From Pycnococcus provasolii (taxonomy: Eukaryota; Chlorophyta; Pseudoscourfieldiophyceae; Pseudoscourfieldiales; Pycnococcaceae), in assembly GCA_938743325.2 (NCBI GenBank), contig OW568902.1, positions 186,001-250,000 of the forward strand: DNA of 64,000 bases, given 5' to 3'. Below the pieces are notes generated by a model. It was not told the DNA's origin. It searched no databases and saw nothing but the letters and a program-made list of their open reading frames with translations. This document shows, piece by piece, positions 608 to 64,000 of the stretch. The position numbers and the translations under genes were made by a program. Positions within the stretch are counted from its first letter, which is position 1. Each line of letters starts with the position of its first letter.

Positions 608-1555
608 TCAGCACCACGCATCCACCCTGATTGGTCGGATGGTACGACCTGCCGCCTGCGACCTTCGCTCGCTGCACGACTGCACGAACGCGTGCGCGCG
701 CTGCTCCGCCGCCTTCTGACGCGCAACCTCCAGCTCGGCACGAGCCTTCGCCGCTGCCGCAGCTCGTGCCGCGGCGGCCGGGATCTGCACCCTCTGGACA
801 CGCGAGGGTGCGCTAAAGTCACGAGGAGGCGGCGTGGGCGGCGTTGCAAAGCCCGTCCCCTGCTTCGCCTCCTGGAACGCCCTCGTGCGAGCATCCGCAT
901 CCTTCTGTCGTATCGCCTGAATGTCCGCGCGAGCCTTGGCATAAGCCGCGTTATCAGCTTTCGCCTTCGCCGCACCGGCAGCCGCAAACGCCTTAGGCTT
1001 CGCCTCCATTCTTCGAACGGACTTGATCTGCTCCCGAGCTTGCGTGTACGCCTGCGTGTCCGCCTGCGCGTGCGCATCTCCGGCGGCAGCGTATGCACCC
1101 TCCCTGGCCGCAAGCCACGCCTGGCGCCGTTGTTCCGCTTCTTTCTGCCTCCTCGCGGCGATGTCTGCGCGTGCCTTTGCAACTTCCGCCATCTTTGCCG
1201 CCTTCTCTGCATCATTTTGCGTTTTTGGTACATGTTTTGTTTGTTTTGCGACCCTTTGAAGGGTAGGCGCGTTGAAGTCGAAGTTCGCCGGCGGTGCTGG
1301 CGCACGTGCAGCGGGTGTGCCACCTCCCCCCTTGGCATCGAGATACGCCTGGTGGCGAATCTCTGCGTCTCTTCGTTTCTTCGCTTCAATCTCCGCCATC
1401 AAACGCGCACGCTGCTGCTCCGACGCGTCGTGCTGCCCGTTCCCAGGATTACCCAATCTCCTGTGTGCTGCATGTGTGCGCACCACACAGCGCACATTAC
1501 GATTACGGGATCCCAGTGTTTGTTGCAAAGGAGCCAAGGACTTTAAGGACGCCAT
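608..1555 (-). CDS. Short EAK-motif repeat protein, plastid-targeted candidate (paralogue of 52861-53952)
   Basis: A 315-residue protein rich in Ala, Arg, Lys and Gln. The ATG at 1555 opens a Ser/Arg-rich, acid-poor N-terminus of about 45 residues that looks like a chloroplast transit peptide. The rest is a string of predicted helices carrying the family motif, for example RHQAYLDAK, RRQAWLAAREG, RTRAFQEAK and RAHAFVQS, separated by short Pro/Ala linkers such as FDFNAP. The central ~110 residues align almost without gaps to the protein at 52861-53952, including REQIxSxRRMEAKPKAFAAA, and both end in a similar A-W-C tail. There is no CBM20 or enzyme domain. It is transcribed divergently from RPT5. 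Function is unknown. By inference it is the EPYC1-like linker format of the family (short, basic, repeated helical motif with an aromatic residue). A general coiled-coil structural protein is the alternative. Confidence 0.8.
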   Translation of the reverse strand: MASLKSLAPLQQTLGSRNRNVRCVVRTHAAHRRLGNPGNGQHDASEQQRARLMAEIEAKKRRDAEIRHQAYLDAKGGGGTPAARAPAPPANFDFNAPTLQRVAKQTKHVPKTQNDAEKAAKMAEVAKARADIAARRQKEAEQRRQAWLAAREGAYAAAGDAHAQADTQAYTQAREQIKSVRRMEAKPKAFAAAGAAKAKADNAAYAKARADIQAIRQKDADARTRAFQEAKQGTGFATPPTPPPRDFSAPSRVQRVQIPAAAARAAAAAKARAELEVARQKAAEQRAHAFVQSCSERRSQAAGRTIRPIRVDAWC

Positions 1556-5080: not shown

Positions 5081-5735
5081 GGTAAGGTGAGCAGCTCGCA
5101 TCAGCAGCTCAAGGTAAGGAGAGCAGCTCGCATCAGCAGCTCAAGGTAAGGAGAGCAGCTCGCATCAGCAGCTCAAGGTAAGGTGAGCAGCTCGCATCAG
5201 CAGCTCAAGGTGAGGTGAGCAGCTCGCATCAGCAGCTCAAGGTGAGGTGAGCAGCTCGCATCAGCAGCTCAAGGTGAGGTGAGCAGCTCGCATCAGCAGC
5301 TCAAGGTGAGGTGAGCAGCTCGCATCAGCAGCTCAAGGTGAGGTGAGCAGCTCGCATCAGCAGCTCAAGGCAAGGTGAGCAGCTCGCATCAGCAGCTCAA
5401 GGTAAGGTGAGCAGCTCGCATCAGCAGCTCAAGGTAAGGAGAGCAGCTCGCATCAGCAGCTTAAGGCAAGGTGAGCAGCTCGCATCAGCAGCTCAAGGCA
5501 AGGTGAGCAGCTTGCATCAGCAGCTCAAGGCAAGGAGAGCAGCTCGCATCAGCGGCTCCGTGCACTCCATCCCAACGCTCTTGCGTGGGTCGGAAGTGGC
5601 GGTCTGTTAGGTGTACAGCTCGCATCAGGAGCTTGCGGTAAGGTGTACGGCTCGCATCAGGAGCTCGCGGTAAGGCACACGGCTCGCATCAGGAGCTCAC
5701 GGTAAAGGGTACGGCTCGCATCAGCAGCTCGTGGT
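5081..5735. repeat. 32-bp minisatellite, about 18-19 units
   Basis: Tandem array with a period of 32 bp, checked from consecutive gcagctcgcatcagcagctc starts at 5091, 5123 and 5155. The main block runs to about 5560 with near-identical units that differ mainly in aaggtaagg versus aaggtgagg. After a break of about 50 bp, four more diverged units (5609-5735) carry gctcgcatcaggagct. The array overlaps the end of the Copia relic on the minus strand. There are no unique spacers between units, so it is not a CRISPR array. Confidence 0.9.
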
Positions 5736-6394: not shown

Positions 6395-6401
6395 GCAACA
6401 G

Positions 6402-9442: not shown

Positions 9443-10798
9443 ATGGCCGGTTGTCGTATTCATAGTAGTATGGCGTTCAGGGGTTCTTCTAGGGTCTCTT
9501 CTCAGGCTCGCAGTAGTGGTAGTTTAAACTCGCGGTTAACGGTTATTAACGGTGGTGGTAAGGTTTCTAAGAGGACTTGTCTGGTGTCTGTTCGCACCAA
9601 GGCGTTTCCGTCGGGAGGAAATGGAGGAAATGGAAATCATGGAAATGGAAATCAACCTACTCCGCTCAACGGCAAAGCCTCCCCCGGAGCTCCGTCCCCT
9701 GTGGAGGAGGTTCAAAGCGCGGCAGCTCTCGCGCGTCTTGAAATTCAAAAGAAGAGACAACGTGAGGCGGAGGACCGTGCGAGGGCGTTCGCGGAGGCGA
9801 AGGCGCAGCAGGGGCAGGGGAGTCCGACGACGGCCACGACGCAGCCGGGGAACAACGGACACCACCAGACGTATGAAAACAACCTGAGAAGTGAGGAGAT
9901 TAAGAAGGAGGCGGAGGCGCGCGCAAAGGCGTTCCTCGACGGCCTGAACGGAACGGAACAGCCGCCTCCCGCTCCTGCGGCAGCAGAGCAGGCGAACGCC
10001 AAGGCGGCGGCGGATGCAAAGCAGCTGTTCGCGAACGTCAGGCAAAACGATGTGGCAAGGTCAAACGAAGACGACGTGCCCGGCTTTCAAGCGTCGACCG
10101 AAGCGAGCATCATCCCCACGACGTCAGCCGCACCCACGGCACTAGCGCCGGCGACGTTCCAGGCGCCAGAGGGACCGGCAAACGTGCACTTCTCGGTGCA
10201 GTTCCACGCCGAACACGGGGAACGGCTTGTGGTGTGCGGCAAGCACCGCCTCCTGGGCGGATGGGATCACCACAAGGCGGTGACACTTGAATGGAACGAT
10301 GGCGATATCTGGACAGGCGCCGTGTCGCTTCCGGCTGCCGACTTGTACGACTACAAATACGCCGTGATCCACGACCATGGCGCGGTCACGTGGGAAAAGG
10401 GTGTCGACCGCATACTCGTCGTTGAGGCGAACGACATCAGTGATGGCATCGCCGTGAGCGACGCATGGGAAGACTCAGCGAGTTCCATGCTCGTCACCAA
10501 CGGCGTCGCGATGAGTGCAAGCCAAAAGCTTCGCGAATGTCTCGTGCAAGCACGCAAGGACGTGGAGGTGGCGCATGCTTCGAATCGCGCACTCAAGGCT
10601 GAGCTCGCGACGAAAGATATTGCTCTCAGGCAGCAAGCGAAGGAGGCAAGGGAGGCACTGGCGCGTGCATCAGAGGTTGCCGAAGCTGCGCTCGCGACCG
10701 CGGCGGCGCCCACTGCAATGTCGCGTAGTGACGCGCTGAAACGCGCCGAGGATGCACTCGAGCGCGCCGAGGCTGCGCTTTCACGGATTGGCGTTTAG
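9443..10798 (+). CDS. CBM20 starch-binding protein with EAK motifs and C-terminal coiled coil
   Basis: A 451-residue protein. Residues 1-55 are Ser/Arg/Gly-rich and acid-poor, as in a plastid transit peptide. Family motifs sit at about 104-120 (RQREAEDRARAFAEAK) and 154-165 (KEAEARAKAF) in Pro/Gly-rich linkers. A CBM20 spans about 247-332. It keeps the aromatic pair of starch-binding site 1, GGWD near 274 and TWEKG near 317. The C-terminus (360-450) is a Lys/Glu/Ala coiled coil. CBM20 binds alpha-glucan, so the protein should contact starch. There is no catalytic domain, so it is a tether or adaptor rather than an amylase. It converges with the giant CBM20 gene 151 bp downstream, which suggests local duplication. 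The pyrenoid role is inference; a general starch-metabolism adaptor is the alternative. Confidence 0.88.
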   Translation: MAGCRIHSSMAFRGSSRVSSQARSSGSLNSRLTVINGGGKVSKRTCLVSVRTKAFPSGGNGGNGNHGNGNQPTPLNGKASPGAPSPVEEVQSAAALARLEIQKKRQREAEDRARAFAEAKAQQGQGSPTTATTQPGNNGHHQTYENNLRSEEIKKEAEARAKAFLDGLNGTEQPPPAPAAAEQANAKAAADAKQLFANVRQNDVARSNEDDVPGFQASTEASIIPTTSAAPTALAPATFQAPEGPANVHFSVQFHAEHGERLVVCGKHRLLGGWDHHKAVTLEWNDGDIWTGAVSLPAADLYDYKYAVIHDHGAVTWEKGVDRILVVEANDISDGIAVSDAWEDSASSMLVTNGVAMSASQKLRECLVQARKDVEVAHASNRALKAELATKDIALRQQAKEAREALARASEVAEAALATAAAPTAMSRSDALKRAEDALERAEAALSRIGV

Positions 10799-10949: not shown

Positions 10950-13900
10950 TTACCAGCGACTGCCAGACAGCTGCTCCGCCTTCATGGCAGCAAACGCCTT
11001 TGCACGATCCTCTCTCTCCTTCTGCCTAATAGCGTGTAGGTCCTGTAAGCTATTCATTGCCCAATCTCTCGCCTTTGCGAACATTGACGTAGCGCCGGCG
11101 GATCGACTTTCCTTGACGTCGTACTCCTCCACCTCACAAACGCCCGATTGCTCATCGCAGCCGATGCGCCGGTTCTCGCCGCGCTCCCACTCGAGGCTGC
11201 CGTTCGCGCGCCTCACGAGCACCTTGAACTCGCACGTAGTACTACTCTCCAAGCTGTCGTGCAGCGATATCTCCGCGCTCCACATGTCGCCGCCCTTCAC
11301 GCACGTCAGAGGCAGCGCCTTGTCGGGGTTCCAATTGCCGAGTTGCTCCGTCGATCCGCAGATGAGCACGGTGTCGCCGTACTTGCACTGCAGCTGCACT
11401 TCAAAGTGCGCCGTATGCGCATTCGGCTGGGTCGTCATTGAGACCACTGGAGCGTCTTTTGTCGGACCTTGGATTTGAACTGCTTTCGCTTCGGCAAAAG
11501 CCTTAGCGCGAGCCTCCGCCTCTCTCTGCCGCGTCGCGAGTAGGTTCTCATGAGCCATCGATTCTCTCGACGGCAGATCATGACTCGTCTGTGCGTCGCT
11601 TTCACGCCCAATGCCCCGATTCTCGCCGCGCTCCCACTCGAGGCTGCCATCCTCGCGCCTCACCAGCATCTTGAACTCGCACGTGCTCTCCATGCCGTCG
11701 TGCAGCGGTATATCTGCGCTCCACATGTCGCCGCCCTTCGCACACGTCAGAGGCAGCGCCTTGTCGGGGTTCCAATTGCCGAGTTGCTCCGTCGATCCGC
11801 AGATGAGCACGGTGTCGCCATACTTGCACTGCAGCTGCACTTCAAAGAGTACGGTATGCGCATTCGGCGGGATCGTCGCAGACACCTTTGCGCTTGATAC
11901 AGGCGCTGGTTTCCGTTCGTTTTGGTCTTCAGCGTGTTTTGTCGTCGTCGCTTCTGGAGACACTGCGAGTTGCTGCGACTTCGCCTCCGCGAACGCCTTA
12001 GCGCGTGCTTCCGCGTCATGTTGTCTTGTTGTCATAAGTGCATCATTGAGGCTCTTGGAAGCAGCACGATTTGCCTGGATATCGTACGCATCGCCCACGA
12101 CTGGCTCGTGATCACGACCAATTTTCCGATTTGTGCCATCCTCTACTACCTCACAAACGCCCGATTGCTCATCGCAGCCGATGCGCCGATTCTCGCCGCG
12201 CTCCCACTCGAGGCTGCCGTTCGCGCGCCTCACGAGCACCTTGAACTCGCACGTACTCTCCAAGCTGTCGTGCAGCGATATCTCCGCGCTCCACATGTCG
12301 CCGCCCTTCACGCACGTCAGAGGCAGCGCCTTGTCAGGGTTCCAATTGCCGAGTTGCTCCGTCGATCCGCAGATGAGCACGGTGTCGCCGTACTTGCACT
12401 GCAGCTGCACTTCAAAGTGCGCGGTATGCGCATTCGGCTGGGTCGTCATTGAGACCGCTGGAGCGTCTTTTGTCGGACCTTGGATTTGAACTGCTTTCGC
12501 TTCGGCAAAAGCCTTAGCGCGAGCCTCGGCGTCTGTCTGGCGCGTTCGTATCAGTCTCTGATCTTCATTTGGCATTTCGGATGCCTGATTTCCTCGTCGC
12601 GCTTGCTCGCGTACAGCTGAAGTGGGAATCGAGGAAACCGGCTTTGGTGTAGAAGCAGGATTAGGTATTGGTTGCGAAACAAGCTGCACTGCTTTCGCTT
12701 CGGCAAAAGCCTTAGCGCGGGCCTCCGCCTCTCTCTGCCGCGTCGCGAGTAGGTTCTCATGAGCCACCGATTCTCTCGACGGCAGATCATGACTCGCCTG
12801 TGCGTCGCTTTCACGCCCAATGCCCCGATTCTCGCCGCGCTCCCACTCGAGGCTGCCATCCTCGCGCCTCACCAGCATCTTGAACTCGCACGTGCTCTCC
12901 ATGCCGTCGTGCAGCGGTATATCTGCGCTCCACATGTCGCCGCCCTTCGCACACGTCAGAGGCAGCGCCTTGTCGGGGTTCCAATTGCCGAGTTGCTCCG
13001 TCGATCCGCAGATGAGCACGGTGTCGCCATACTTGCACTGCAGCTGCACTTCAAAGTGTACGGTATGCGCATTCGGCGGGATCGTCGCAGACACCTTTGC
13101 GCTTGATACAGGCGCTGGTTTCCGTTCGTTTTGGTCTTCAGCGTGTTTTGTCGTCGTCGCTTCCGGAGACACTGCGAGTTGCTGCGACTTTGCCTCCGCG
13201 AACGCCTTAGCGCGTACCTCTGCCTCCTTGTGTCGAATGGATAATACTTCCAACTTGAAAGCTTTAGCATCTGCCTCTGCTTGTGCTCTGTTAGCTTCGG
13301 CAGCAGCGGCTCTCACCGCAGCTGCAGATATTGCGGAAGTCGCATTTTTATCGCTGTTAAGTTTTGCCCCTTCAGGTTTTGCAGATTGAAGTTGCTTAGC
13401 CTCTGCGAACGCTTTAGCACGATCTTCGGCTTGCCTTTGTCGCATAAAATTCACATCATGTCGCGCTGCCGCTTCTGCCAAATCCTGCTCCCTACTCTTG
13501 ACTTCTGAGCTCTGCGCAAATTCACTTCCCTTATTCGTATCACGTTCAGAGGCGGATTGCGATTGCGTGCTCTGCGAATGAATTTGTGACTTAGATGATG
13601 TCGTAGTTTCTGGCGAAAAAACCGCCGTAGACGCCTTCGCCTCGGCGAACGCCTTCGCGCGAGCTTCTGCGTCCATCTGACGTTGCGACATACGCGAAGA
13701 TGTCGCAGTCGCTGGCTCGAAAAAGGAAGGAATCTCCCTGCCTACTGTCGGCGTCGGATCAGCAGGACGCATCGCCTTCGCCTCGGCGAACGCCTTCGCG
13801 CGAGCTTCTGCGTCCATCTGACGTTGCGACATACGCGAAGATGTCGTTGTCGCTGGCTCGGTAAACGACGGCATTTCTCTACCTACTGTCGGCGTCGGAT

Positions 13901-16900
13901 CAGCAGGACGCATCGCCTTCGCCTCGGCGAACGCCTTCGCGCGAGCTTCTGCGTCCATCTGACGTTGCGACATACGCGAAGACGTCGGCGCCGCCGGTTC
14001 GGTAAATGAAGGAATCTCTTTGGCTGCTGGCTCGAAAAACGAAGGAATCTCCCTGCCTGCTATCGGCGTCGGATCTGCAGGACGCATCGCCTTCGCCTCG
14101 GCGAACGCCTTCGCGCGCGCGTCTGCGTCCATCTGACGTTGAGACATACGCGAAGACGTCGGCGCCGCCGGTTCGGTAAATGAAGGAATCTCTTTGGCTG
14201 CTGGCTCGAAAAAAGAAGGAATCTCCCTGCCTGCTATCGGCGTCGGATCTGCAGGGCGCATCGCCTTCGCCTCGGCGAACGCCTTCGCGCGAGCTTCTGC
14301 GTCCATCTGACGTTGAGACATACGCGAAGATGTCGGCACCACCGGTTCGGTAAATGAAGGAATCTCCCTGCCTGCTGTCGGCGTCGGATCTGCAGGACGC
14401 ATCGCCTTCGCCTCAGCGAACGCCTTCGCGCGCGCCTCTGCGTCGACCTGACGTTGCGACATACGTGAAGACGTCGGCGCCGCCGGCTCGAAAAAAGAAG
14501 GAATCTCCCTGCCTGCTGTCGGCGTCGGATCAGCAGGACGCATCGCCTTCGCCTCAGCGAACGCCTTCGCACGCGCCTCTGCGTCGACCTGACGTTGCGA
14601 CATACGCGATGACGTAACTTTTGACGGATCTGAAAATGCCGGTGGTTGCTGCGATACTGCTGGCGTCGGATCCGTGGAAAGGGACGCCTTCGCCTCCGCG
14701 TATGCCCTGGCGCGGGCTTCTTCATCCATCTGACGCTTCGACATGCGGGTATCTGATGCCATCGCCACGTTAAATTCTTCACGGGGTGATGCCGGTGTCG
14801 GGTCTGCGAAAAATGCAGACTTTGCCTCCGCTATTGCCTTAGCACGAGCTCCGGCACCCATTTCACGTTTGAGTGTATTTGGAGGCACACTATCAAACGA
14901 AAACGCTGATGCAGAATGCTCGATTTTCGGTGCAAAAAGATCATCCCAAGATTTCAATCTTTCCTGCTCTTTGTCTTCATTGCGATCCGTACTCTGTTCC
15001 TCTAGCAGAGATGCAAGCTCCTCCTCTCGAGCCCTCGCAGCTGCAGCTATAGCATCCGCTTCTTCCTTTGCAACTTTGTACGCCTTTGCTCGAGCCTCTG
15101 ATTCTCGTTTTTTAAGCTCAGCCATCGAAACAAACTTAACTTGAGAGTCCGCTTCCATAAGCGAAGGAAGCTGTGGCATCGTATCATCATCAACCAGGTT
15201 CGCCTGTTTCTGGGCCTGCTTGAGCGTAAGGAGATCAAGCTCCTCGCGAGCCTTTCTCTGTGCTTCCTCTTCCATCTTAGCTGTCAACTCATCAAGTGCA
15301 GCATTAGCAGCCTCCTCTTCTGCCTTTTCTTTTTCAAATGCCTTCGCACGAGCCTCCTTTTCTGTATTTTTGATAGCCTGTAGCTCTTCCCATCGCTGAA
15401 TATCAGCTTCAGCCTTCGCTTTTGCTTCTAACTGCATTCGTAAATACTCTTTAGCATTAGCCTCTGCCTTAGCCTTAGCATCTGCCTCTGCCTTCGCCGA
15501 CTCCATCTTTGACGTGACTTTGCCAGTAAAGGAGGCGGCTTTATCCTTCAATACCTTAAGCTTCTCTGCCGCCGCCAACGCGAGTTGCTGCGCCTTCTCC
15601 TCCTCAAATGCCTTTGCCCGATCCTCAACCTCCTTCTTCCGAATCGCTTTCAACTCCTCCCTGAACTTAGCGTCCGCTTCTGCCTTAGCCTTAGCCTCCG
15701 CCTCACTTCGCAAAAAGGCATCAGCTCCTTGTTTTGCCTTTGCTTTTGGCATCACCGCCGCAGCAACTGACGCAGCTTTCTGCTGTATCTTTCTCAGTTT
15801 TTCCGCTGCGGCTGCAGCCATCTGTTGCGCCTTCTCTTTCTCAAATGCCATCGCTCTATCTTCCTCCTGCTGTTGGCGCATAGCCTGCAACTCTTCCCGT
15901 TGCCTTGCCTCTGCTTCCGCCTTAGCCTTTGCTTCTGCCTGTTCGCGCAGAAACATTTCAGCCTTTTGTTTGGCCTCCTGCTCAGATAGCAATTTCGCAT
16001 TTGTCGCTGCCGCGGCAGCCTCCATCTCTCGAGCCTCCTGCTCAGCCTTTTCCCGGGCAGCCGCCATTGCAGCCGCAGCATGTACCCTCTGTTGCTCATC
16101 AGCGGCGGCTTTGGCAGCAGCAAGCTGCTCTTGTTGCCGTTTTTCCTCCTCGAACGCTCTCGCTCGGGTCTCCTCCTCTTGCCGTCTCATTTCCTGCTCA
16201 TGGGCTATGCGTCTTGCCTCCTCATCAGCCTTAGCCTTAGCTTCGGCTTCCTGTCGTTGGAATTCTGCACGCATAGCTGCTTCCCTCTCCTCCGCCTCTG
16301 CGGCAGCTAGAGCCTCCTGCTCAGCTCTCGCCCGCGCCTCCTGCTCAGCTCTCTGCCGCTCTGCTTCGGCGGCTGCGGCAGCGGCAGCCTCCTGCTCAGC
16401 TTTCACCCGAAATGCATGTTCGGCTCTCTCGCGCGCCGCTGCTTCGGCGGCGGCAGCAGCAGCCTCATGCTCAGCTCTCTCGCGCGCCGCTGCTTCGTCG
16501 GCGGCAGCAGCCGCTTCCTGCTGAGCTCTCTGTCGCTCAGCTGCTTCGGCGGCAGCCGCAGCGGCAGCCGCTTCCTGCTGAGCTCTCTGTCGCTCTGCTG
16601 CTTCAGCGGCAGCGGCAGCAGCGGCAGCTTCCTGCTGGGCTCTCTGTCGCTCAGCTGCTTCGGCAGCGGCAGCTTCTTGTTGCGCTCTCTCCCTTGCTTC
16701 TTGCTCAGCTCTTGCCCGAGCAATGTGATCAGCTCTCTGTTGTTCTGCTGCTTGTGCAGCCTCAGCAGCCTTGTTCTGTTCAAATTTCGCCCTCGCCGCG
16801 GCATGAGCAGTCTCCTCCCTATCTCTGAGATACCTTTCTTCTCTTGCAATCTCTTCTCGCAGAACATCAGCCTCCTTGCCGGTAAATGGCGCGTCGGACA

Positions 16901-18239: not shown

Positions 18240-18834
18240 CTTCTCCCCTGCGAACATGGCGAAGGTAACCGTGTATTGCGAGCTGTACAGCGTGCGAAGA
18301 AGAAACACGGGAGGGGGAATGACACGTGGAATGGAGAAGGGGGGAGTGGATAGGGGAGCAGGGTTTCTGCAGAGGAGGTTTTCTTTCCGCGGTGCCCCGG
18401 GCTTGGTGAATGGTGGGCCCCCGGGGGACTGCTTTCCTCCCCCGACCTAATAATAACGATGCCGCCTCCCCCCTTCCCCAGACTTTTCCCTCGAGTCCGT
18501 CCGAGTGCCTAGACTAACTATTGAGTGTCTTTCTCGGTCCGTCGGGGGCTCGTTCTCCTCTCCCCGCTTTTCCCTTTCCCAGTCGGCCAGGATGATTATT
18601 CGGGGGGTTCCAACAGATGGGTCCAACCCCGTTCTTTCTCTTTCTCCTCTACGATAGTCCATAGGGTACGATTCCTTTTTTTTCGGGGTTGGGGTGAGCT
18701 CAGTCTACCTTTAGAGGGCGTTGGCCGTTGGGGGTTTGATTCCTCTCCTCTTGAGTCCCCCAAAGGGCTCTAGCTACCCGGTAGAGCTCTACTCCGGAGG
18801 GAGCGGCCTTGGAGATTCACAACCTTTTTTTAGC
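18240..18834. promoter_or_regulatory. Shared divergent promoter region
   Basis: 595 bp between the giant minus-strand gene and the plus-strand coiled-coil gene. It is GC-rich at first (ccgcggtgccccgggc near 18390), then pyrimidine-rich. Open frames here are not convincing. If the two genes are co-regulated, the elements are expected here. Confidence 0.35.
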
Positions 18835-27251: not shown

Positions 27252-27274
27252 TCACTCGTCATCGTCATCGTCAC

Positions 27275-29697: not shown

Positions 29698-29817
29698 CGC
29701 TAACATCCCCTGGGGGTTCCGGGAACGAGCCATCTCCGGCGACCAGTCACGCGCGGCGAACCGGGCGAGCGAGGCGAGGCGGCTTCCCGGGTGCGTAAAC
29801 TTCTTCGCGATCCGCGT

Positions 29818-52860: not shown

Positions 52861-53952
52861 ATGGCCGCCATCAGCAGCACGAAACATATGGCTCGCATCC
52901 GCGCTCGGGCACCTAGCACCCCCTCTCTCAGCTCTCGACGTCACCAGGCACCTAGTAAGGTGACCGCACGCCCTTGCACAGCTGCTTGCGCGTCCCGTGT
53001 TCTTACCTTGTGCGCCACACCGTCCCCATCTTCCTCGAATGCCTCATCTCGCGACTCCGTGTCCCCTTCGAATGTCGCACAGGCCAGGGCGCTTCTTAGA
53101 GAGACGAGGCGTCAACAAGAAGAGCAGAGGAGGCTCGCGTGGCTGGCGGCCAAGGAAGGAGGATCGGCCGCGGGCACTTCAAGAACAAACGAAACGGATT
53201 CGTGGAGTACAGCAGAAGTCGAAGCTGAACCAGAACAGGAACACGCAGAAGTCGTCTTGCCAGACTTCAACGCGCCCGTTCACGGAACAGGATCCGTGTC
53301 CGCATCCGCGGAAAATATGCAGGCGGATTACGCCAAGGCACGCGCCGAGATCGCAGTGAGGAGGCAGAGAGGGGCGGAGGAACGCCGCCAGGCGTGGCTG
53401 GCGGCGAAGGAGGGGGCGTATGCAGCCGCCAGTGAAGCGAAGACGCGCGCGGACACGAAAGCTTACGCTCGAGCTCGTGAACAGATACAGTCCATCCGCA
53501 GAATGGAGGCGAAGCCTAAGGCGTTTGCGGCTGCTGGTATGGCGAAGGCGCAGGCGGACGAGGAGGCGTACTTCAAGGCTCGCGACGAGATTCAGTCGAT
53601 CCGTGAGAAGGATTCGGACGCTCGCTTGAGGGCATACCAGGAGGCGAAGCAAAAGGCATCGGAGGTTCGTAGGCAATTTGGCGCTGGTGCCGCAGCTCCG
53701 TCTTGCAGTTTGCCGCCGCCGAAAGCGGTTGATCAGCAGGAGGCGTCGGACAAGCAGAAGGCTTACGACGAGGCGAAGGCTGCGAACTCGATGGAGTCTT
53801 CCGCGCCCTCATTCAGCGGCGAATCGTGGAAGGAGGGGCAGAACTACTACGCGTCTTCATCATACGGAGAGAGTGTGAAAAGCCTAGCGGTGCCGAATCC
53901 TGGAACCACCAGTGGCCTGGTGGCGAGTGTGCAAGCATGGTGCACGGCATGA
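52861..53952 (+). CDS. Short EAK-motif repeat protein, plastid-targeted candidate (paralogue of 608-1555)
   Basis: 363 residues from ATG 52861; the frame is open back to 52729, but MAAISSTKHMARIRARAPST is a typical Ser/Arg transit peptide and the better start. Family motifs: RRLAWLAAKEG, RRQAWLAAKEG, RMEAKPKAFAAAG, RLRAYQEAK and a KQKAYDEAK variant. Two of them have Trp in the aromatic position, as in the paralogue. The stretch from about 155 to 265 aligns nearly residue-for-residue with the protein at 608-1555. DFNAP linkers and an A-W-C end are also shared. The C-terminal 80 residues are Ser/Tyr/Gly-rich and disordered. There is no CBM20. It is 1.1 kb upstream of the membrane-anchored family member, same strand. 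By format it is the best EPYC1-like linker candidate here, although no sequence similarity to EPYC1 is claimed. Confidence 0.82.
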   Translation: MAAISSTKHMARIRARAPSTPSLSSRRHQAPSKVTARPCTAACASRVLTLCATPSPSSSNASSRDSVSPSNVAQARALLRETRRQQEEQRRLAWLAAKEGGSAAGTSRTNETDSWSTAEVEAEPEQEHAEVVLPDFNAPVHGTGSVSASAENMQADYAKARAEIAVRRQRGAEERRQAWLAAKEGAYAAASEAKTRADTKAYARAREQIQSIRRMEAKPKAFAAAGMAKAQADEEAYFKARDEIQSIREKDSDARLRAYQEAKQKASEVRRQFGAGAAAPSCSLPPPKAVDQQEASDKQKAYDEAKAANSMESSAPSFSGESWKEGQNYYASSSYGESVKSLAVPNPGTTSGLVASVQAWCTA

Positions 53953-55087: not shown

Positions 55088-57436
55088 ATGTCAGCCATGG
55101 CATCAGCACAGGTATCTGGCTCGCTCCTCACCTCGCGAAAAAAATATGCAAATGGGCGGCGTGTTCGTAAAAGAGAATCGTCCTTGTCTCGCTTGGGGGC
55201 ACACGCGTCGTCGTCGTCCCCGTCTGCTCACCACAACCACCACCAGCAGCAGCAACAGACCTCTGATATGCATCTGAATCAGCAGCATGACGGTGCTCAC
55301 CATTGGAATCCGAGTCATCCAAATAATCCGAGTCATTCTGCTCGAAATGTCGCTGCTCGTGCGACGACAATCCGAAGCAGCACGCAGCAGTCTGGGTTTG
55401 AAGACTACTCTTCAACGCAGATGCGAAACGGAACAGTCTCGCCGTCCATGGAGGCGAAACAGGCGGAAGCGAGGGCGCGAGAATATGAAAACGCCATGGC
55501 GCGCGAACAACTCCAGTCGAAACGCCAGAGAGAAGCGGAGGAAAGGGCGAGGGCGTTTGCCGAGGCGAAGGGTCTGCAAAACGCACCACACGTCCAAATG
55601 CCGCAGACGGCATTTTCTTCTCCTCCACCACCATCGCCTCCTCCACCACCACCTCCACCACCTCCTCCAACCCCACCAAAACAGACGGCGGACGATGCCG
55701 TGGCAAGGGCGGAGGCGAACGCAAAGGCTCGTTTCGAGCTGGAGGCTCGACGCAAACAGGAGGCGGAGGCACGAGCAAGGGCATACGCCGAGGCGAAGGG
55801 AGCTGCAACATCCGCACACGCACCCACACCCGCCGCTCCTCCTCCGTCTCCTCCATCTCCTGCTCCTCCATCCCCACCATCTGCATCGAAACCAACGGGC
55901 GCAAATCGAACGCTCAGTCGGTCAGGTCACGTCGTCAGTGTAGAGGAGGCGCACGCAGAGGCGCGAGCAATACGGGCAGAGGCTCACTTTGAGCGACACC
56001 AGCAGACAGCAGCATCCCCTCCTCCTCCTCCTCCTCCTCCTCCTCCTCCTCCTCCTCCTCCTCCTTCTCCTTCTCCTCCTCCTTCTCCTCCTCGGACATC
56101 TCGGCAGCAGGATATGGAGGCTCGTGCGAGGGCGTACGCGGAAGCGAAGGCTGCACCCGCACCACCCGCACAACATATCGCAGGAGCTGGCTCGGAGACG
56201 GATACGTTTGCCGCAGCGATTACAAAGGCAAACACGCAAGCGCAACCCGTGAGTACGGAGCAGATGCAAGCTCGCGACGAACTTATGATGAAGAGGCAGG
56301 CGGATGCTGACGAACGTGCAAGGGAGTTCATGGCAATCAAGATTGAGCAGTCGATGACTTCCGCGGCTATGACGAAGGAAAAAGCCGAGGACGAGGCGAT
56401 CGTCATGGCTGGGGAGAGAATCCGGGCGGAGGAGAGGGCTGAAGCCGCGTCAGCAAAGGCAAAGATGCTGAAGCAGGAGGCTGCGAATGCCGCGACTGCC
56501 AGGGCAATGGCTGAGCAGAGAGCTGCGAATGCCGCCGCGGAGATTGCAAACGCGGAGGCGTACAAGGCTGCCACCGCAAGGCAGGAGGCGGAGGAGGCTG
56601 CCGCATTTGCACGAGCAGCCATCGCGAGGGCGGAGGCGGAGGCTGCCGCCGCAGCTGCTAAGGCGAAAATGTTTGAGGATGAGGCTGCGCAAGCTGCTAG
56701 GATGAGGGCAGATTCCGAGGCACTTGCAAAAGCACAGGCTGACCTCAAGGATCTCGAGGATGTGAGGGAGAGGCGGAACGGGGAGGTGGAGATGCGCAAG
56801 CATTCTTACCTCGCAGCGAAAGAGGAGCTGAAGATTGCGACGGATTGGCAAGCGCAGTGCCGTGCTGCCGAGAAGGCTGCCTCCGCCGAGGCGCAGTCGG
56901 AGGTACGCGGAGCGGTTTCGCAGTACATGCTCAAGGTGCCGAAATTCAAACCGATCGATGCCGCCACAGCCGCGGCTGCCGCCGAGTCTAACGCCAATGC
57001 GATTGCAAAGATGCAGGGGGCTGCCGCCGCAAGCATCGCGAGGACGCAGGCGGATGATCGGCTGGCTACCGCAAATGCCAGGATGGCTGCGGAAGGCGAG
57101 GCACTGTCAAAGGCTGAGGCTGATGTGACAGCTTTGGAGTGGATTCGTGCGAGGCGACAGCAGGATGTGGAGGATAAGATGCGTGCTGTGAATAGGACGG
57201 AACATCTGCTTCATGCGGATGACGTGAAGGAGAGGGCGCAGGCGGCTGTGAAGGAGGCTAGGGCTGAAATGGACGATACACCTAAGCTCAAGGCGGCGAG
57301 CGAGCCAACAAAGCCTTTCTGGGAGAAGCATGCGGAGACTTTACGTGAGTTCGCCAGCCCGACTGGGGCGGGTTTGGTAACCGCGGCTGGACTCTGTGCG
57401 GTGTTTGTGATGCGCAAGGTGTTGACTGGAGTTTAG
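55088..57436 (+). CDS. EAK-motif, Pro-rich protein with C-terminal membrane segment
   Basis: 782 residues. A Ser/Arg-rich N-terminus (MSAMASAQVSGSLLTSRKKY) suggests plastid targeting. A His/Gln low-complexity region follows, then family motifs (RQREAEERARAFAEAK, RKQEAEARARAYAEAK, RQQDMEARARAYAEAK, RQADADERAREFMAIK, RKHSYLAAKEEL) separated by long poly-Pro linkers (SPPPPPPPPPP). Residues about 420-740 are Ala/Glu/Lys/Arg coiled coil. The last 25 residues contain one hydrophobic helix (GAGLVTAAGLCAVFVMRKVL), a tail-anchor-like membrane segment. There is no CBM20. In the scaffold model it would tie the motif-binding partner to a membrane such as a thylakoid, as the Chlamydomonas Rubisco-binding membrane proteins do. 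That is inference. A dual reading as an envelope or ER tail-anchored protein cannot be excluded. Confidence 0.85.
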   Translation: MSAMASAQVSGSLLTSRKKYANGRRVRKRESSLSRLGAHASSSSPSAHHNHHQQQQQTSDMHLNQQHDGAHHWNPSHPNNPSHSARNVAARATTIRSSTQQSGFEDYSSTQMRNGTVSPSMEAKQAEARAREYENAMAREQLQSKRQREAEERARAFAEAKGLQNAPHVQMPQTAFSSPPPPSPPPPPPPPPPPTPPKQTADDAVARAEANAKARFELEARRKQEAEARARAYAEAKGAATSAHAPTPAAPPPSPPSPAPPSPPSASKPTGANRTLSRSGHVVSVEEAHAEARAIRAEAHFERHQQTAASPPPPPPPPPPPPPPPPSPSPPPSPPRTSRQQDMEARARAYAEAKAAPAPPAQHIAGAGSETDTFAAAITKANTQAQPVSTEQMQARDELMMKRQADADERAREFMAIKIEQSMTSAAMTKEKAEDEAIVMAGERIRAEERAEAASAKAKMLKQEAANAATARAMAEQRAANAAAEIANAEAYKAATARQEAEEAAAFARAAIARAEAEAAAAAAKAKMFEDEAAQAARMRADSEALAKAQADLKDLEDVRERRNGEVEMRKHSYLAAKEELKIATDWQAQCRAAEKAASAEAQSEVRGAVSQYMLKVPKFKPIDAATAAAAAESNANAIAKMQGAAAASIARTQADDRLATANARMAAEGEALSKAEADVTALEWIRARRQQDVEDKMRAVNRTEHLLHADDVKERAQAAVKEARAEMDDTPKLKAASEPTKPFWEKHAETLREFASPTGAGLVTAAGLCAVFVMRKVLTGV

Positions 57437-58348: not shown

Positions 58349-61300
58349 ATGCTCGTGCACGCGCCGGGCCAGCGCCATGGCGCTGGGCGCGCAGTGGCGT
58401 TCGTCTCCAGCCGTACGCATGCTGGACCTCGTATTCGACCTCGCTGGATTTCGGCGGCAATCCAAATCAAACACGATGGTGCTGGCGCTTCGTCCGTGGG
58501 AATCTCAGACGAGGAATCCTTACGACGTCGTTCTCTGGAATCGGAGAAACTCGAAAAAGCTCAAGAAAGAGCGAGGCAGTTCGCAGAGGCGAAAGCGATG
58601 CAACTTGCCGAGAATACCGGTGCGACGTCAATCAATACCAAAAAGGCGAAAGTTGTGCACTTCCGCGTCTACTACCCGTGCGAGCATGGGGCCAGCGTGC
58701 TCGTATGCGGAAGCGTCGACCGGCTCGGGAACTGGGATCCCGAAAAGGCGATTCCACTCACGTGGACAGACAGCGACGTCTGGGCCGCTGACATTCCCAT
58801 CGACGAAGACCTCATCGACGCCTGCGAGTTCAAGGTGATGGTCAAGCGGAGCGACGGGTCCATCAGCTGGGAATCTGGACCCAACCAACGCATACGAAGA
58901 GACGAGGACCGAGACGACGCGAACGAGGAGACCACAACTCCACCACCACCGCCACCAACGACGTCGTATCCTGCTGTGACTCAGGCTCAGGCGAGAGAGA
59001 AGCTCAGGCAACAAGTCGAAGCGCTGGCTCAAGAAAACGAAAAGGCGCGGCAGCAACTACATGGTCTACGGCAAAGAGAGGCGGAATCTCGCGCTCAGGC
59101 GTTCGCGAAGGCTAAGGCTGAGCAGCACTCTTCTGCAGGACAAATCCCAGCAGCACCAGCGAATCTTCAAAACGTGGACAACACGAAGAAGCTGGTGCAC
59201 CTCCGCGTGCATCTCGCCTCCGAATTTGGTGACAGCGTATTCGTCTCCGGGTCTGTCACGGATCTCGGCAACTGGGACCCGCAGAAAGCATTGCCGCTGA
59301 AATGGACAGCCAGTGACGTGTGGTCTGCCGATGTGCCAATCAACAACACGGAGATCGACACGTGCGAGTTCAAAGTAATGGTGAAACGGCGCGACGGAAG
59401 TATCGCATGGGAACCCGGTCCGAATCAGCGCATCCGACGCACAGAAGGTGACAAAAGGTCGTCACAAAAACCACATGCTCAAATCCAGGCGCAGACACAG
59501 CATCAAGCTGACGAGCAGGCGAAGGCGCGAGCGGCTGCCGATGCGAAGGCGCGCGAGCAGCGCGATGCTCAGCGTCAGAAGCAGGCTGAGGAGCGCGCAA
59601 AAGCCTTCTTAGCTGCCAAGCAGTCGCAGTCGCCGTCGCCATCTTCACCGCCGTCTACATCGCCGCCCTCGTCACCACGGGCGGCGAAATCGAAGCAGCA
59701 GGCGGGCGAGCAGGCGAGGGCACAAGCTGCGGCTGATTTGAGGGCGCGCGAGCAGCGCGATGCTCAGCGTCAGAAGCAGGCGGACGCTCGCGCGCAGGCG
59801 TATGCTGCGGCGAAGCAGATGTCGCCGCCGCCGTCGCCCCGTGCGATGCCGTCATCTGCTCCAGTGCCGGCAGTTCCCTCGCCGCAAGCGCAGGCGCAAT
59901 CGAAGCAGCAGGCGGACGTGCAGGCGAGAGCACAAGCTGCGGCTGACCTGAGGGCGCGCGAGCAGCTCGATGCTCAGCGTCAGAAGCAGGCGGACGCTCG
60001 CGCGCAGGCGTATGCTGCGGCGAAGCAGACGTCGCCGCCGCCGTCGCCCCGTGCGATGCCGTCATCTGCTCCAGTGCCGGCAGTTCCCTCGCCGCAAGCG
60101 CAGGCGCAATCGAAGCAGCAGGCGGACGAGCAGGCGAGGGCACAAGCTGCGACTGACTTGAGGGCGCGCGAGCAGCTCGATGCTCAGCGTCAGAAGCAGG
60201 CGGACGCTCGCGCGCAGGCGTATGCTGCGGCGAAGCAGACGTCGCCGCCGCCGTCGCCCCGTGCGATGCCGTCATCTGCTCCAGTGCCGGCAGTTCCCTC
60301 GCCGCAAGCGCAGGCGCAATCGAAGCAGCAGGCGGACGAGCAGGCGAGGGCACAAGCTGCGGCTGACCTGAGGGCGCGCGAGCAGCTCGATGCTCAGCGT
60401 CAGAAGCAGGCGGACGCTCGCGCGCAGGCGTATGCTGCGGCGAAGCAGATGTCGCCGCCGCCGTCGCCCCGTGCGATGCCGTCATCTGCTCCAGTGCCGG
60501 CAGTTCCCTCGCCGCAAGCGCAGGCGCAATCGAAGCAGCAGGCGGACGAGCAGGCGAGGGCACAAGCTGCGGCTGACCTGAGGGCGCGCGAGCAGCTCGA
60601 TGCTCAGCTTCAGAAGCAGGCGGACGCTCGCGCGCAGGCGTATGCTGCGGCGAAGCAGACGTCGCCGCCGCCGTCGCCCCGTGCGATGCCGTCATCTGCA
60701 CCGGCGCCGGCAGTTCCCTCGCCGCAAGCGCAGGCGCAATCGAAGCAGCAGGCGGACGAGCAGGCGAGGGCACAAGCTGCGACTGACTTGAGGGCGCGCG
60801 AGCAGCTCGATGCTCAGCGTCAGAAGCAGGCGGACGCTCGCGCGCAGGCGTATGCTGCGGCGAAGCAGACGTCGCCGCCGCCGTCGCCCCGTGCGATGCC
60901 GTCATCTGCTCCAGTGCCGGCAGTTCCCTCGCCGCAAGCGCAGGCGCAATCGAAGCAGCAGGCGGACGAGCAGGCGAGGGCACAAGCTGCGGCTGACCTG
61001 AGGGCGCGCGAGCAGCTCGATGCTCAGCGTCAGAAGCAGGCGGACGCTCGCGCGCAGGCGTATGCTGCGGCGAAGCAGATGTCGCCGCCGCCGTCGCCCC
61101 GTGCGATGCCGTCATCTGCTCCAGTGCCGGCAGTTCCCTCGCCGCAAGCGCAGGCGCAATCGAAGCAGCAGGCGGACGAGCAGGCGAGGGCACAAGCTGC
61201 GGCTGACCTGAGGGCGCGCGAGCAGCTCGATGCTCAGCTTCAGAAGCAGGCGGACGCTCGCGCGCAGGCGTATGCTGCGGCGAAGCAGATGTCGCCGCCG

Positions 61301-64000
61301 CCGTCGCCCCGTGCGATGCCGTCATCTGCACCGGCGCCGGCAGTTCCCTCGCCGCAAGCGCAGGCGCAATCGAAGCAGCAGGCGGACGAGCAGGCGAGGG
61401 CACAAGCTGCGGCTGACTTGAGGGCGCGCGAGCAGCTCGATGCTCAGCGTCAGAAGCAGGCGGACGCTCGCGCGCAGGCGTATGCTGCGGCGAAGCAGAT
61501 GTCGCCGCCGCCGTCGCCCCGTGCGATGCCGTCATCTGCTCCAGTGCCGGCAGTTCCCTCGCCGCAAGCGCAGGCGCAATCGAAGCAGCAGGCGGACGAG
61601 CAGGCGAGGGCACAAGCTGCGGCTGACTTGAGGGCGCGCGAGCAGCGCGATGCTCAGCGTCAGAAGCAGGCGGACGCTCGCGCGCAGGCGTATGCTGCGG
61701 CGAAGCAGGCGTCGCCGCCGCCGTCGCCCCGTGCGATGCCGTCATCTGCACCGGCGCCGGCAGTTCCCTCGCCGCAAGCGCAGGCGCAATCGAAGCAGCA
61801 GGCGGACGAGCAGGCGAGGGCACAAGCTGCGGCTGACTTGAGGGCGCGCGAGCAGCGCGATGCTCAGCGTCAGAAGCAGGCGGACGCTCGCGCGCAGGCG
61901 TATGCTGCGGCGAAGCAGACGTCGCCGCCGCCGTCGCCCCGTGCGATGCCGTCATCTGCTCCAGTGCCGGCAGTTCCCTCGCCGCAAGCGCAGGCGCAAT
62001 CGAAGCAGCAGGCGGACGAGCAGGCGAGGGCACAAGCTGCGGCTGACCTGAGGGCGCGCGAGCAGCTCGATGCTCAGCGTCAGAAGCAGGCGGACGCTCG
62101 CGCGCAGGCGTATGCTGCGGCGAAGCAGACGTCGCCGCCGCCGTCGCCCCGTGCGATGCCGTCATCTGCTCCAGTGCCGGCAGTTCCCTCGCCGCAAGCG
62201 CAGGCGCAATCGAAGCAGCAGGCGGACGAGCAGGCGAGGGCACAAGCTGCGGCTGACCTGAGGGCGCGCGAGCAGCTCGATGCTCAGCGTCAGAAGCAGG
62301 CGGACGCTCGCGCGCAGGCGTATGCTGCGGCGAAGCAGATGTCGCCGCCGCCGTCGCCCCGTGCGATGCCGTCATCTGCACCGGCGCCGGCAGTTCCCTC
62401 GCCGCAAGCGCAGGCGCAATCGAAGCAGCAGGCGGACGAGCAGGCGAGGGCGCAAGCTGCGGCTGACTTGAGGGCGCGCGAGCAGCTCGATGCTCAGCGT
62501 CAGAAGCAGGCGGACGCTCGCGCGCAGGCGTATGCTGCGGCGAAGCAGACGTCGCCGCCGCCGTCGCCCCGTGCGATGCCGTCATCTGCTCCGGCGCCGG
62601 CAGTTCCCTCGCCGCAAGCGCAGGCGCAATCGAAGCAGCAGGCGGACGAGCAGGCGAGAGCACAAGCTGCGGCTGACTTGAGGGCGCGCGAGCAGCGCGA
62701 TGCTCAGCGTCAGAAGCAGGCTGAGGAGCGCGCAAAAGCCTTCTTAGCTGCCAAGCAGTCGCAGTCGCCGTCGCCATCTTCACCGCCGTCTACATCGCCG
62801 CCCTCGTCACCACGGGCGACGAAATCGAAGCAGCAGGCGGACGAGCAGGCGAGGGCACAAGCTGCGGCTGATTTGAGGGCGCGCGAGCAGCGCGATGCTC
62901 AGCGTCAGAAGCAGGCGGACGCTCGCGCGCAGGCGTATGCTGCGGCGAAGCAGGCGTCGCCGCTGCCGTCGCCCCGTGCGATGCCGTCATCTGCACCGGC
63001 GCCGGCAGTTCCCTCGCCGCAAGCGCAGGCGCAATCGAAGCAGCAGGCGGACGAGCAAGCGAGGGCGCAAGCTGCGGCTGACCTGAGGGCGCGCGAGCAG
63101 CGCGATGCTCAGCGTCAGAAGCAGGCGGACGCTCGCGCGCAGGCGTATGCTGCGGCGAAGCAGGCGTCGCCGTCATCATCTCCACCAATTTCCCCGACAT
63201 CGTCACCACCCTTATCACCTCGCGCGACGTCGCCGGCTCAAGATGTGCTCAACAAAGAACGACAAGAGCAGGCGGAGGCGGCGTTGCGTATCTGGTCACG
63301 ACAGAAACAGACCGAGGAGCGCATGACGGCGATGCTTCAGCAAGCTGAGGCAGATTCTGCTGCGAAACTTGCAGCCGACGCAAAGATTCGCAGTCATCTC
63401 AATGATCGTCGACAGAAGGAGGCGGAACTTCGAGCAAGGGCATTCGCTGAGGCGAAGGCCACGACTCCACCGCCTCAAGCCGCCTACACGTCACCCGCTT
63501 CTGTTTCGCCAGCGGTGCCGTCGCCTCAGCTGCGACAAGAGGCAAAGCAGCAAGCGGATGACAAGGCAAGGGAAAATGCGGCAGCTGCTGCCAAGGCTCG
63601 AGAGGAGCTGCAGAACCGTCGGAATAAGGACGCAGAAGCGCGCGCGAAAGCATATGCGGATTACAAAGCCTCGACGCCGGCGCCGGCGCCGGTCATTCCG
63701 CAGACGGCACCAGTCGTTCCGCAGGCGCCACCCCAGCCGACGCGAGAGCAGAAACAGGAGCAAGCCCGCATTAAGGCTGCTGCCGATGCGAAGCTTCGCG
63801 GGGCACGAAACCAAATGCAACAGCAGGAGGCGGCATCCCGCGCTAAGGCGTTTGCGGAGGCGAAGGCTGCTCAGTTTGAATCAACGTCTGCACCAGCTGC
63901 ACCGATTCCCGTCGCTGCCCGTGCCGCGTTTGCTCAATCGCACACAGATCAAAAGAAGATTGAGGCGCAGGCGAAGGCGAAGGCTGACGCGCAGGCACGA
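58349..64000 (+). CDS. Large CBM20 protein with 70-residue EAK-motif repeats, partial at right edge
   Basis: The frame is open from ATG 58349 through the window end (1884 codons, no stop seen), so the C-terminus is missing. The N-terminus is Arg/Ser/Gly-rich and transit-like. CBM20 domains lie at about 102-185 and 282-365. Both keep LGNWDP and WE(S/P)GPNQR, the usual starch-site-1 aromatics. Motifs precede and follow each domain (ERARQFAEAK, RQREAESRAQAFAKAK). From about residue 435 to 1605 runs a 70-residue repeat: REQ(L/R)DAQRQKQADARAQA then YAAAKQ, followed by a SPPPSPRAMPSSAP linker and AQSKQQADEQARAQAAADLR. Diverged motif copies continue to the edge. The antisense strand is also open over the repeats, but CBM20 fixes the coding strand. 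It is a candidate starch-anchored, highly multivalent scaffold. A 5' exon upstream is possible. Confidence 0.85.
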   Translation, partial: MLVHAPGQRHGAGRAVAFVSSRTHAGPRIRPRWISAAIQIKHDGAGASSVGISDEESLRRRSLESEKLEKAQERARQFAEAKAMQLAENTGATSINTKKAKVVHFRVYYPCEHGASVLVCGSVDRLGNWDPEKAIPLTWTDSDVWAADIPIDEDLIDACEFKVMVKRSDGSISWESGPNQRIRRDEDRDDANEETTTPPPPPPTTSYPAVTQAQAREKLRQQVEALAQENEKARQQLHGLRQREAESRAQAFAKAKAEQHSSAGQIPAAPANLQNVDNTKKLVHLRVHLASEFGDSVFVSGSVTDLGNWDPQKALPLKWTASDVWSADVPINNTEIDTCEFKVMVKRRDGSIAWEPGPNQRIRRTEGDKRSSQKPHAQIQAQTQHQADEQAKARAAADAKAREQRDAQRQKQAEERAKAFLAAKQSQSPSPSSPPSTSPPSSPRAAKSKQQAGEQARAQAAADLRAREQRDAQRQKQADARAQAYAAAKQMSPPPSPRAMPSSAPVPAVPSPQAQAQSKQQADVQARAQAAADLRAREQLDAQRQKQADARAQAYAAAKQTSPPPSPRAMPSSAPVPAVPSPQAQAQSKQQADEQARAQAATDLRAREQLDAQRQKQADARAQAYAAAKQTSPPPSPRAMPSSAPVPAVPSPQAQAQSKQQADEQARAQAAADLRAREQLDAQRQKQADARAQAYAAAKQMSPPPSPRAMPSSAPVPAVPSPQAQAQSKQQADEQARAQAAADLRAREQLDAQLQKQADARAQAYAAAKQTSPPPSPRAMPSSAPAPAVPSPQAQAQSKQQADEQARAQAATDLRAREQLDAQRQKQADARAQAYAAAKQTSPPPSPRAMPSSAPVPAVPSPQAQAQSKQQADEQARAQAAADLRAREQLDAQRQKQADARAQAYAAAKQMSPPPSPRAMPSSAPVPAVPSPQAQAQSKQQADEQARAQAAADLRAREQLDAQLQKQADARAQAYAAAKQMSPPPSPRAMPSSAPAPAVPSPQAQAQSKQQADEQARAQAAADLRAREQLDAQRQKQADARAQAYAAAKQMSPPPSPRAMPSSAPVPAVPSPQAQAQSKQQADEQARAQAAADLRAREQRDAQRQKQADARAQAYAAAKQASPPPSPRAMPSSAPAPAVPSPQAQAQSKQQADEQARAQAAADLRAREQRDAQRQKQADARAQAYAAAKQTSPPPSPRAMPSSAPVPAVPSPQAQAQSKQQADEQARAQAAADLRAREQLDAQRQKQADARAQAYAAAKQTSPPPSPRAMPSSAPVPAVPSPQAQAQSKQQADEQARAQAAADLRAREQLDAQRQKQADARAQAYAAAKQMSPPPSPRAMPSSAPAPAVPSPQAQAQSKQQADEQARAQAAADLRAREQLDAQRQKQADARAQAYAAAKQTSPPPSPRAMPSSAPAPAVPSPQAQAQSKQQADEQARAQAAADLRAREQRDAQRQKQAEERAKAFLAAKQSQSPSPSSPPSTSPPSSPRATKSKQQADEQARAQAAADLRAREQRDAQRQKQADARAQAYAAAKQASPLPSPRAMPSSAPAPAVPSPQAQAQSKQQADEQARAQAAADLRAREQRDAQRQKQADARAQAYAAAKQASPSSSPPISPTSSPPLSPRATSPAQDVLNKERQEQAEAALRIWSRQKQTEERMTAMLQQAEADSAAKLAADAKIRSHLNDRRQKEAELRARAFAEAKATTPPPQAAYTSPASVSPAVPSPQLRQEAKQQADDKARENAAAAAKAREELQNRRNKDAEARAKAYADYKASTPAPAPVIPQTAPVVPQAPPQPTREQKQEQARIKAAADAKLRGARNQMQQQEAASRAKAFAEAKAAQFESTSAPAAPIPVAARAAFAQSHTDQKKIEAQAKAKADAQAR
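59571..63166 (+). repeat. 210-bp tandem repeat, about 16 units, in the right-edge CBM20 gene
   Basis: Fourteen consecutive units keep an exact 210-bp period (gatgctcagcgtcagaagca at 59759, 59969 and so on to 62489), followed by two more after a break. A variant leader unit (AEERAKAFLAAKQSQSPSP and TSPPSSPRA) occurs both at 59571-59690 and 62711-62830, so the array has a higher-order duplication of about 3.1 kb. Units differ by only a few bases, which indicates recent expansion or homogenisation. Confidence 0.93.

Follow-up and report, generated by a model that had tools for sequence, protein, structure and literature searches.

A helical motif shared by starch-binding, membrane-tailed and motif-only proteins of Pycnococcus provasolii: a candidate pyrenoid scaffold family

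Described scaffold systems and the Pycnococcus locus

Pyrenoids are held to be convergent in the literature covered, and within it the assembly of matrix, starch and membrane through one motif has been worked out in Chlamydomonas only. In that alga, one short motif runs across the matrix linker EPYC1, the CBM20 coiled-coil starch binders SAGA1/2 and the membrane proteins RBMP1/2. Excerpts of two papers state that SAGA1/2 pair CBM20 with the Chlamydomonas Rubisco-binding motif and that the authors regard this motif as limited to the Volvocales (PMC13167743; PMC10473226). The excerpt of the former, a 2026 paper, also speculates that other algae use functional analogues of SAGA, in which carbohydrate-binding domains accompany a local Rubisco-binding motif (PMC13167743). 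The family analysed here, from an early-diverging marine green alga, has the shape predicted in that excerpt. Further described systems include CsLinker of Chlorella sorokiniana, whose Phe173, Arg176 and Lys177 dock on E51, D86, I87 and Y97 of RbcL (PMC11570498, excerpt), PYCO1 of Phaeodactylum, whose sticker possibly makes sticker-sticker as well as sticker-Rubisco contacts (PMC10288592, excerpt), and the plant starch initiation proteins MFP1 and PTST2, a membrane-bound coiled-coil protein and a CBM coiled-coil protein (PMC13167743, excerpt). Among the matches listed from the open-licence literature on Pycnococcus pyrenoid, starch, EPYC1, Rubisco or CBM20, we found no description of the present family.

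The window, that is, the whole 64,000-nucleotide stretch analysed, spans C42:186001-250000 of Pycnococcus provasolii CCAP 190/2, the strain of assembly ucPycProv1.2 (PMC11130579, excerpt), in a genome that totals 32,333,900 bases over 46 contigs. The host species has a pyrenoid, and according to an excerpt on the Pycnococcaceae, the plastid of this family contains a pyrenoid into which mitochondrial membranes intrude (PMC6492006); the excerpts covered make no mention of a starch sheath in Pycnococcus itself. It had been proposed that six clustered genes of the window form a family united by one helical motif. All six share the motif, but six proved too few: the genome holds at least 12 such genes, ten of them on C42 (a 321-kb contig), one on C35 (K) and one on C13 (L). 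Genes A to F lie within the window, and G, H, I and J elsewhere on C42 (Table 1). The original observation holds and was understated. By its parts, the family should work like the Chlamydomonas system, of which it is not a member by sequence: the Pycnococcus motif has a different sequence, and starch-binding, sticker and membrane parts are combined in one chain (F). On balance, we favour a lineage-specific pyrenoid scaffold in which one sticker helix ties together matrix, starch and membrane, most likely via Rubisco binding.

Table 1. Genes, domains and repeats of the motif family (window positions unless a contig is named; motif copies counted at 7 or more of 12 positions)
Feature	Position	Strand	Description
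Gene A	608..1555	-	315 aa; four motif copies, three-helix module, without CBM20; pI 10.9
Gene B	9443..10798	+	451 aa; one CBM20, one strong and one weak motif copy
CBM20, gene B	10181..10432 (C42:196181-196432)	+	Pfam profile
Gene C	10950..18257	-	2435 aa; 25 motif copies, four CBM20
CBM20, gene C, most C-terminal	11142..11408	-	Pfam profile
CBM20, gene C	11586..11855	-	Pfam profile
CBM20, gene C	12159..12419	-	Pfam profile
CBM20, gene C, most N-terminal	12798..13064	-	Pfam profile
Near-tandem array, gene C	13632..14615	-	motif units of 47 to 58 residues
Gene D	52861..53952	+	363 aa; four motif copies, without CBM20
Three-helix module, gene D	53299..53682	+	residues 147-274
Gene E	55088..57436	+	782 aa; five motif copies, polyproline spacers, helical stretch
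Hydrophobic tail, gene E	57368..57424	+	mean Kyte-Doolittle 1.72 over 19 residues
Gene F	58349..64000, on to about C42:256975-256978 (window position 70978)	+	4,209 aa from Met58349
CBM20 first, gene F	58655..58903	+	Pfam profile
CBM20 second, gene F	59195..59461	+	Pfam profile
Tandem repeat, gene F	59683..63172	+	16.7 copies of a 210-base unit
Gene G	C42 71.3-73.6 kb		four CBM20 and motif
Gene H	C42 74.9-76.4 kb		one CBM20 and motif
Gene I	C42 77.2-78.0 kb		motif, without CBM20 or membrane segment
Gene J	C42, start codon 158 bases left of the window		1,219 aa; motif, without CBM20 or membrane segment
Gene K	C35		one CBM20 and motif
Gene L	C13 (L054, 26991 onward)		at least 903 aa; three clear motif copies, hydrophobic segment

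The motif, its controls and its carriers

The core of the motif is an R-x3-[FYW]-x3-K stripe on an alanine-rich helix. The originally proposed consensus (near R-Q-x-E-A-E-x-R-A-x-A-[FYW]-x-E-A-K) was scored on 12 fixed positions. A six-frame scan of the 64 kb gave 51 matches at 8/12 positions or more, and 51 out of 51 fell inside the six named genes (3, 1, 20, 2, 3 and 22 in genes A to F, in order). Residue shuffles of A-K yielded a mean of 0 to 0.07 matches per protein at this threshold and never more than one (100 shuffles each; 30 for F), which bears out that the motif is common to the six genes. Proteins A-K carry 97 copies at 8 or more and 125 at 7 or more, the latter threshold giving a mean of 0.01-0.83 per shuffled protein. 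The range first given, from two to more than twenty copies per protein, has an exception at its lower end in gene B, where one of the two copies is weak. Because both counts lean on the selecting consensus, the reduced core R-x3-[FYW]-x3-[KR] was counted too. It occurred 118 times in the 12 proteins, where shuffles averaged no more than 1.42 per protein; for four of the proteins (A, B, D and K), the best of 200 shuffles reached at least the observed stripe number. The stripe was 13 times denser in the ten family frames on C42 (112 in 11,537 aa, 9.7 per 1000 aa) than in the 143 other frames of that contig (250 aa or longer, antisense included; 55 in 74,110 aa, 0.74 per 1000 aa). Within this set, which was selected for the motif, the basic-aromatic-basic stripe was near-invariant.

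The motif scan covered 244,000 bases of C42 and found 13 open frames with a match, ten being family members and three having a single score-8 match; C42:1-66000 and 310001-321581 (77,581 bases) were covered by similarity in genome-wide protein searches only. A 443-aa frame at C42:263672 with one score-8 match was read and rejected as a family member. Stripes were also present in frames at C42:82044, 121783 and 80081, but by eye these frames read as out of frame and were left out of the family. When D was searched against the genome, it hit six places, namely D, A, J, I, H and K, while searches with L and with E joined E, F and L as one group. The protein search with E, in which the best 58 of 426 candidates were scored, gave at least 38 rows, with weak matches among those listed on C20, C31, C6, C26, C10, C15, C5, C7 and C12 and a second one on C3; L also had a weak match on C12. 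As the DNA was read for two of the matches of E on further contigs, 12 genes is a minimum. These two, L055 (C28:554081-554500) and L056 (C3:69281-69620), are short, closely resemble one another and a portion of F, and have frames that diverge from that of F; L055 is identical to F at 100 out of 110 aligned residues before its frame departs.

Protein searches with D, B and alignment A3 returned 4, 2 and 4 proteins, six different ones. They are counterparts of D, A (two), B and K, with 92-99% identical columns, plus the hybrid P0002. In keeping with the original proposal, the motif family was narrowly distributed among the ~8,000 best candidates that each search scored by shared words, a procedure by which distant relatives could be missed, and a prokaryote genome scan gave no relative. 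P0002 resembles D towards its N-terminus and A towards its C-terminus, and may reflect gene conversion, a real hybrid gene or an assembly chimera.

These counterparts bear on whether the family consists of helical proteins rich in alanine, glutamate and lysine that simply duplicated in tandem, with the motif being a favoured helix repeat without a common ligand. We regard this as improbable, although ten of the twelve genes lie on one contig, the overall composition of the family proteins is alanine-rich, the repeats arrayed in F and C are of recent origin and, across 14 near-identical F units, the spacer is under stronger constraint (pN/pS 0.20) than the helix part (0.68). The shuffles control for composition, K and L are unlinked to the other genes, and the motif is found on CBM20 domains of two groups. 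In addition, the three-helix modules of A and D differ with a dN of 0.19 and a dS of 0.69, and four pairings with public counterparts, gene A figuring in two, revealed changes at 4 of 208 motif residues, compared with 75 differences or indels for 1,275 other residues; dN/dS comparisons with J, which were out of register, were left aside.

CBM20 domains, membrane tails and predicted helices

We identified 13 CBM20 (PF00686) domains in B, C, F, G, H and K, all above the Pfam curated cut-off of 23.3 bits (best E-value 2e-18). In the window they occur once in B, four times in C and twice in F, in agreement with the three starch binders predicted there. In an alignment with solved starch-binding domains, one F domain kept LGNW, FK and WE.GPN; the CBM20 of K is without the Trp of the WE..N site (second Trp). 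The genome contains 27 CBM20 domains: these 13 and 14 others without a motif scoring 8 or more within ~1.5 kb. A tree of all 27 placed the motif carriers in two separate positions, C/F/G/H and B/K, the latter grouping with the non-motif L007 (support 100/98). The former has the non-motif L014 at its base and L016 inside at low support. On this tree the motif label has to change three times, at least two gains or losses being required by the starred branches, and the tree is indifferent between gain and loss. Since motif carriers stand at two places, motif and CBM20 were joined or separated more than once, as would be expected of a portable tag. L016 (C43:109.5-110.1 kb), a possible thirteenth member, encodes 600 aa with two CBM20, of which one groups with the C/F/G type. 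By eye it also has a hydrophobic stretch, and a single segment resembles the motif weakly (6/12).

The modular logic of the prediction, with one motif placed beside CBM20, beside membrane tails or alone, was seen across the 12 genes. Its single member with a membrane tail, gene E, does end in a hydrophobic segment (terminating in RKVLTGV), but is not the sole one. Gene F (at 58,226) is truncated by the window edge, and the rest, read on C42, comprises a helical stretch followed by a hydrophobic tail ending in RKVLTGV like that of E. Within their last 420 residues, E and F matched with 75 out of 209 columns identical (E-value 2e-11), and E, F and L matched one another over helical and membrane-proximal parts. 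The hydrophobic segment of L has a mean Kyte-Doolittle value of 1.85; after it, L (C13:26991 onward) continues with a long Lys/Glu/Ala/Pro tail carrying APMMGVTLSPSKDAVKKEE repeats. Gene F has two CBM20 near its N end and 57 motif copies at 7/12 or more. The C-terminus of B is a helical stretch, coiled-coil-like by eye and similar to that of K, and the N-terminal part of C is long and, by eye, K/E/A-rich. Among the five members that have CBM20 but no membrane tail, four have an acidic pI (5.6-6.7).

All six proteins of the window had been said to start with transit-like sequence, and the N-terminal composition, poor in acidic residues, fits. Specifically, the first 50 residues are 0-4% acidic in ten of eleven proteins and 8% in one, with 9-17% in later residues, and the twelfth protein has 2 acidic residues out of 50 at its N-terminus. 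Together with CBM20 in six genes, this transit-like composition makes a non-plastid filament or cytoskeletal family very improbable; the Tektin match in P0006 that would speak for such a family is weak and falls under the cut-off for Tektin, and no other cytoskeletal domain appeared in the nine proteins scanned.

AlphaFold2, run on a single sequence, predicted six helices of 45-50 residues in a stretch of 421 residues of F (window 59486-60748), with core pLDDT of about 80-90 and low-confidence, proline-rich spacers of ~20 residues between them; about 290 of the 421 residues were predicted helix and 106 had pLDDT below 50. For D, modelled with nine sequences (overall mean pLDDT 61, pTM 0.34; pLDDT below 50 in 179 out of 363 residues), the prediction contained one lone helix (69-99, pLDDT about 80) and the consecutive helices 147-196, 199-230 and 234-274 with tight turns between them, where ten-residue blocks from 161 to 260 averaged 92-96. 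By sequence, this module consists of two motif helices flanking one with a shortened copy. Its R175, K218 and R255 are invariant in the nine sequences, several of which are close relatives. Confidence and turns, not coordinates, suggest that the three adjoining helices form a helical bundle. Similar stretches occur in A, H, I, J and K, and fold searches gave no meaningful match. A and D had been described as two short linkers; they do carry the motif without CBM20, but because their module is predicted as three confident helices with tight turns, they would not be simple disordered linkers of the EPYC1 type.

The three adjoining confident helices suggest that motif helices can pack mutually, and self-association could be their real function. 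Such packing is at the centre of the main rival reading, to which we give a lower probability: a plastid starch-granule scaffold similar to MFP1/PTST2. Here CBM20 members would bind glucan, membrane members would fix the site, helices of different chains would zip into bundles, and the stickers would bind each other or starch enzymes, not Rubisco. High-confidence motif-type helices adjacent through tight turns are what a self-packing helix would be predicted to give, six members have CBM20, and plants likewise pair a membrane-bound coiled coil with a carbohydrate-binding coiled coil (PMC13167743, excerpt). The F model, however, had a pTM of 0.24 and no sign of inter-copy packing, weak evidence as it comes from a single sequence, and four members have the motif without CBM20 or a membrane segment. 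Moreover, the basic-aromatic-basic stripe would suit a face that binds a ligand better than the core of a bundle. The module of PTST2 is CBM48, whereas the Pycnococcus family has CBM20, and we know of no repeated sticker array in MFP1/PTST2.

Rubisco as candidate partner and neighbouring observations

The motif was predicted to differ from that of Chlamydomonas, and the known linker motifs were indeed absent from the 12 family proteins. We found in them no match to [DN]W[RK]xx[LIVA], which we take to be the Rubisco-binding motif pattern of EPYC1/SAGA/RBMP (L being covered over at least 903 aa), to KWSP, the PYCO1 sticker, or to the exact CsLinker pattern E-x3-F[LM]-x2-K. The RbcS helix residues that contact EPYC1 are presumably D23, E24, M87, L90, R91 and V94 (the Chlamydomonas reference was verified against 1gk8_I). 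The corresponding residues of P. provasolii RbcS (one copy) are N, Q, G, L, E and Y, five out of six being changed. With this site mostly changed, the motif, if it binds Rubisco, would dock elsewhere or differently.

With CsLinker the family shares repeated helices, spacers and an aromatic-to-Lys spacing of four, equal to Phe173-Lys177 (PMC11570498, excerpt). In contrast, Arg176 has no counterpart in the Pycnococcus consensus, the residue four positions before the aromatic is Arg in Pycnococcus and Glu in CsLinker, and the helices of CsLinker measure ~10 residues (PMC11570498, excerpt) compared with the 45-50 predicted in F. PYCO1 also has aromatic sticker motifs, but its Rubisco is red-type and that of Pycnococcus green-type. 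The FLIPPer criterion, as excerpted, is repeated structured elements 20-120 residues apart in a largely disordered protein (PMC11570498). Motif spacing was 20-120 residues in 101 out of 114 intervals in A-K, with low-confidence spacers between helices; the "largely disordered" part is doubtful, since the F stretch is mostly predicted helix.

The genome has three LCIB-type and six bestrophin matches, and four rbcS matches on one contig, C2; rbcL was not found in the genome assembly. Motif spacing, the green-type RbcS, the LCIB-type and bestrophin matches and the CsLinker-like aromatic-Lys spacing are our reasons for proposing Rubisco as the partner. Rubisco binding, plastid import, pyrenoid location and a function at the starch sheath are all inferred. 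In the mechanism that we favour, at least 12 nuclear genes would encode probably plastid-targeted scaffolds with one common sticker helix, alone (A, D, I, J), with CBM20 (B, C, G, H, K), with a membrane tail or segment (E, L) or, in the giant chain of F, with both CBM20 and a membrane tail. Held on flexible spacers, sticker helices that are numerous but individually weak would attach to a shared constituent of the pyrenoid matrix, Rubisco being the likeliest. Proteins with stickers alone would cross-link the matrix, those with CBM20 would keep starch on its surface or seed it there, and those with membrane parts would attach it to membrane. Against this reading stand the looser constraint on the helix part of the F units, the doubtful disorder, the stripe numbers of A, B, D and K, the acidic pI of four CBM20 members, the lack of a counterpart to Arg176, the Trp missing from the CBM20 of K and the suggested packing of motif helices on one another. 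We put forward more tentatively that P. provasolii has a pyrenoid wiring code of its own. Its sticker would be unrelated to the EPYC1, CsLinker and PYCO1 motifs and placed on two CBM20 groups and a membrane group, F (4,209 residues) would bridge starch, Rubisco matrix and membrane, and the sticker would also self-bundle, giving cross-linking as well as Rubisco capture. The gene set is small, its short peptides lend themselves to testing, and its starch and membrane anchors could be used as they are in synthetic pyrenoids.

Several other loci were noted. At least two rbcS copies (L047 and L048, C2:1062-1064 kb) have a proline-rich C-terminal extension ending in YNYSW. A 545-aa frame (L050, C14:239973-240221) encodes a long protein, disordered and transit-like by eye, that ends in a divergent Rubisco small-subunit domain (48.5 bits); it recalls the SSU-like domains of carboxysomal CcmM and, judged by its sequence, is possibly a second Rubisco-organising protein. 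L051 (C8:308973-309701) is a Rubisco-like protein in a 644-aa frame, cupin-like by eye in its C-terminal part. In the window, sub-threshold matches to a transposase-like (TNP) protein lie at 24435-27212 and, by eye, Copia-type polymerase fragments at 5657-6565 and 48053-49369. A protein with a glycosyltransferase family 29 (sialyltransferase) domain is encoded at 29704-31347 in this green alga, and a 1271-aa protein at 38631-42446 combines a histidine-kinase ATPase with a guanylate/adenylate cyclase domain and two response-regulator matches. L042 (C42:97066-102450), which shares its contig with ten family genes, encodes a 1794-aa phytochrome with a PHY domain, followed by what by eye are kinase and receiver regions.
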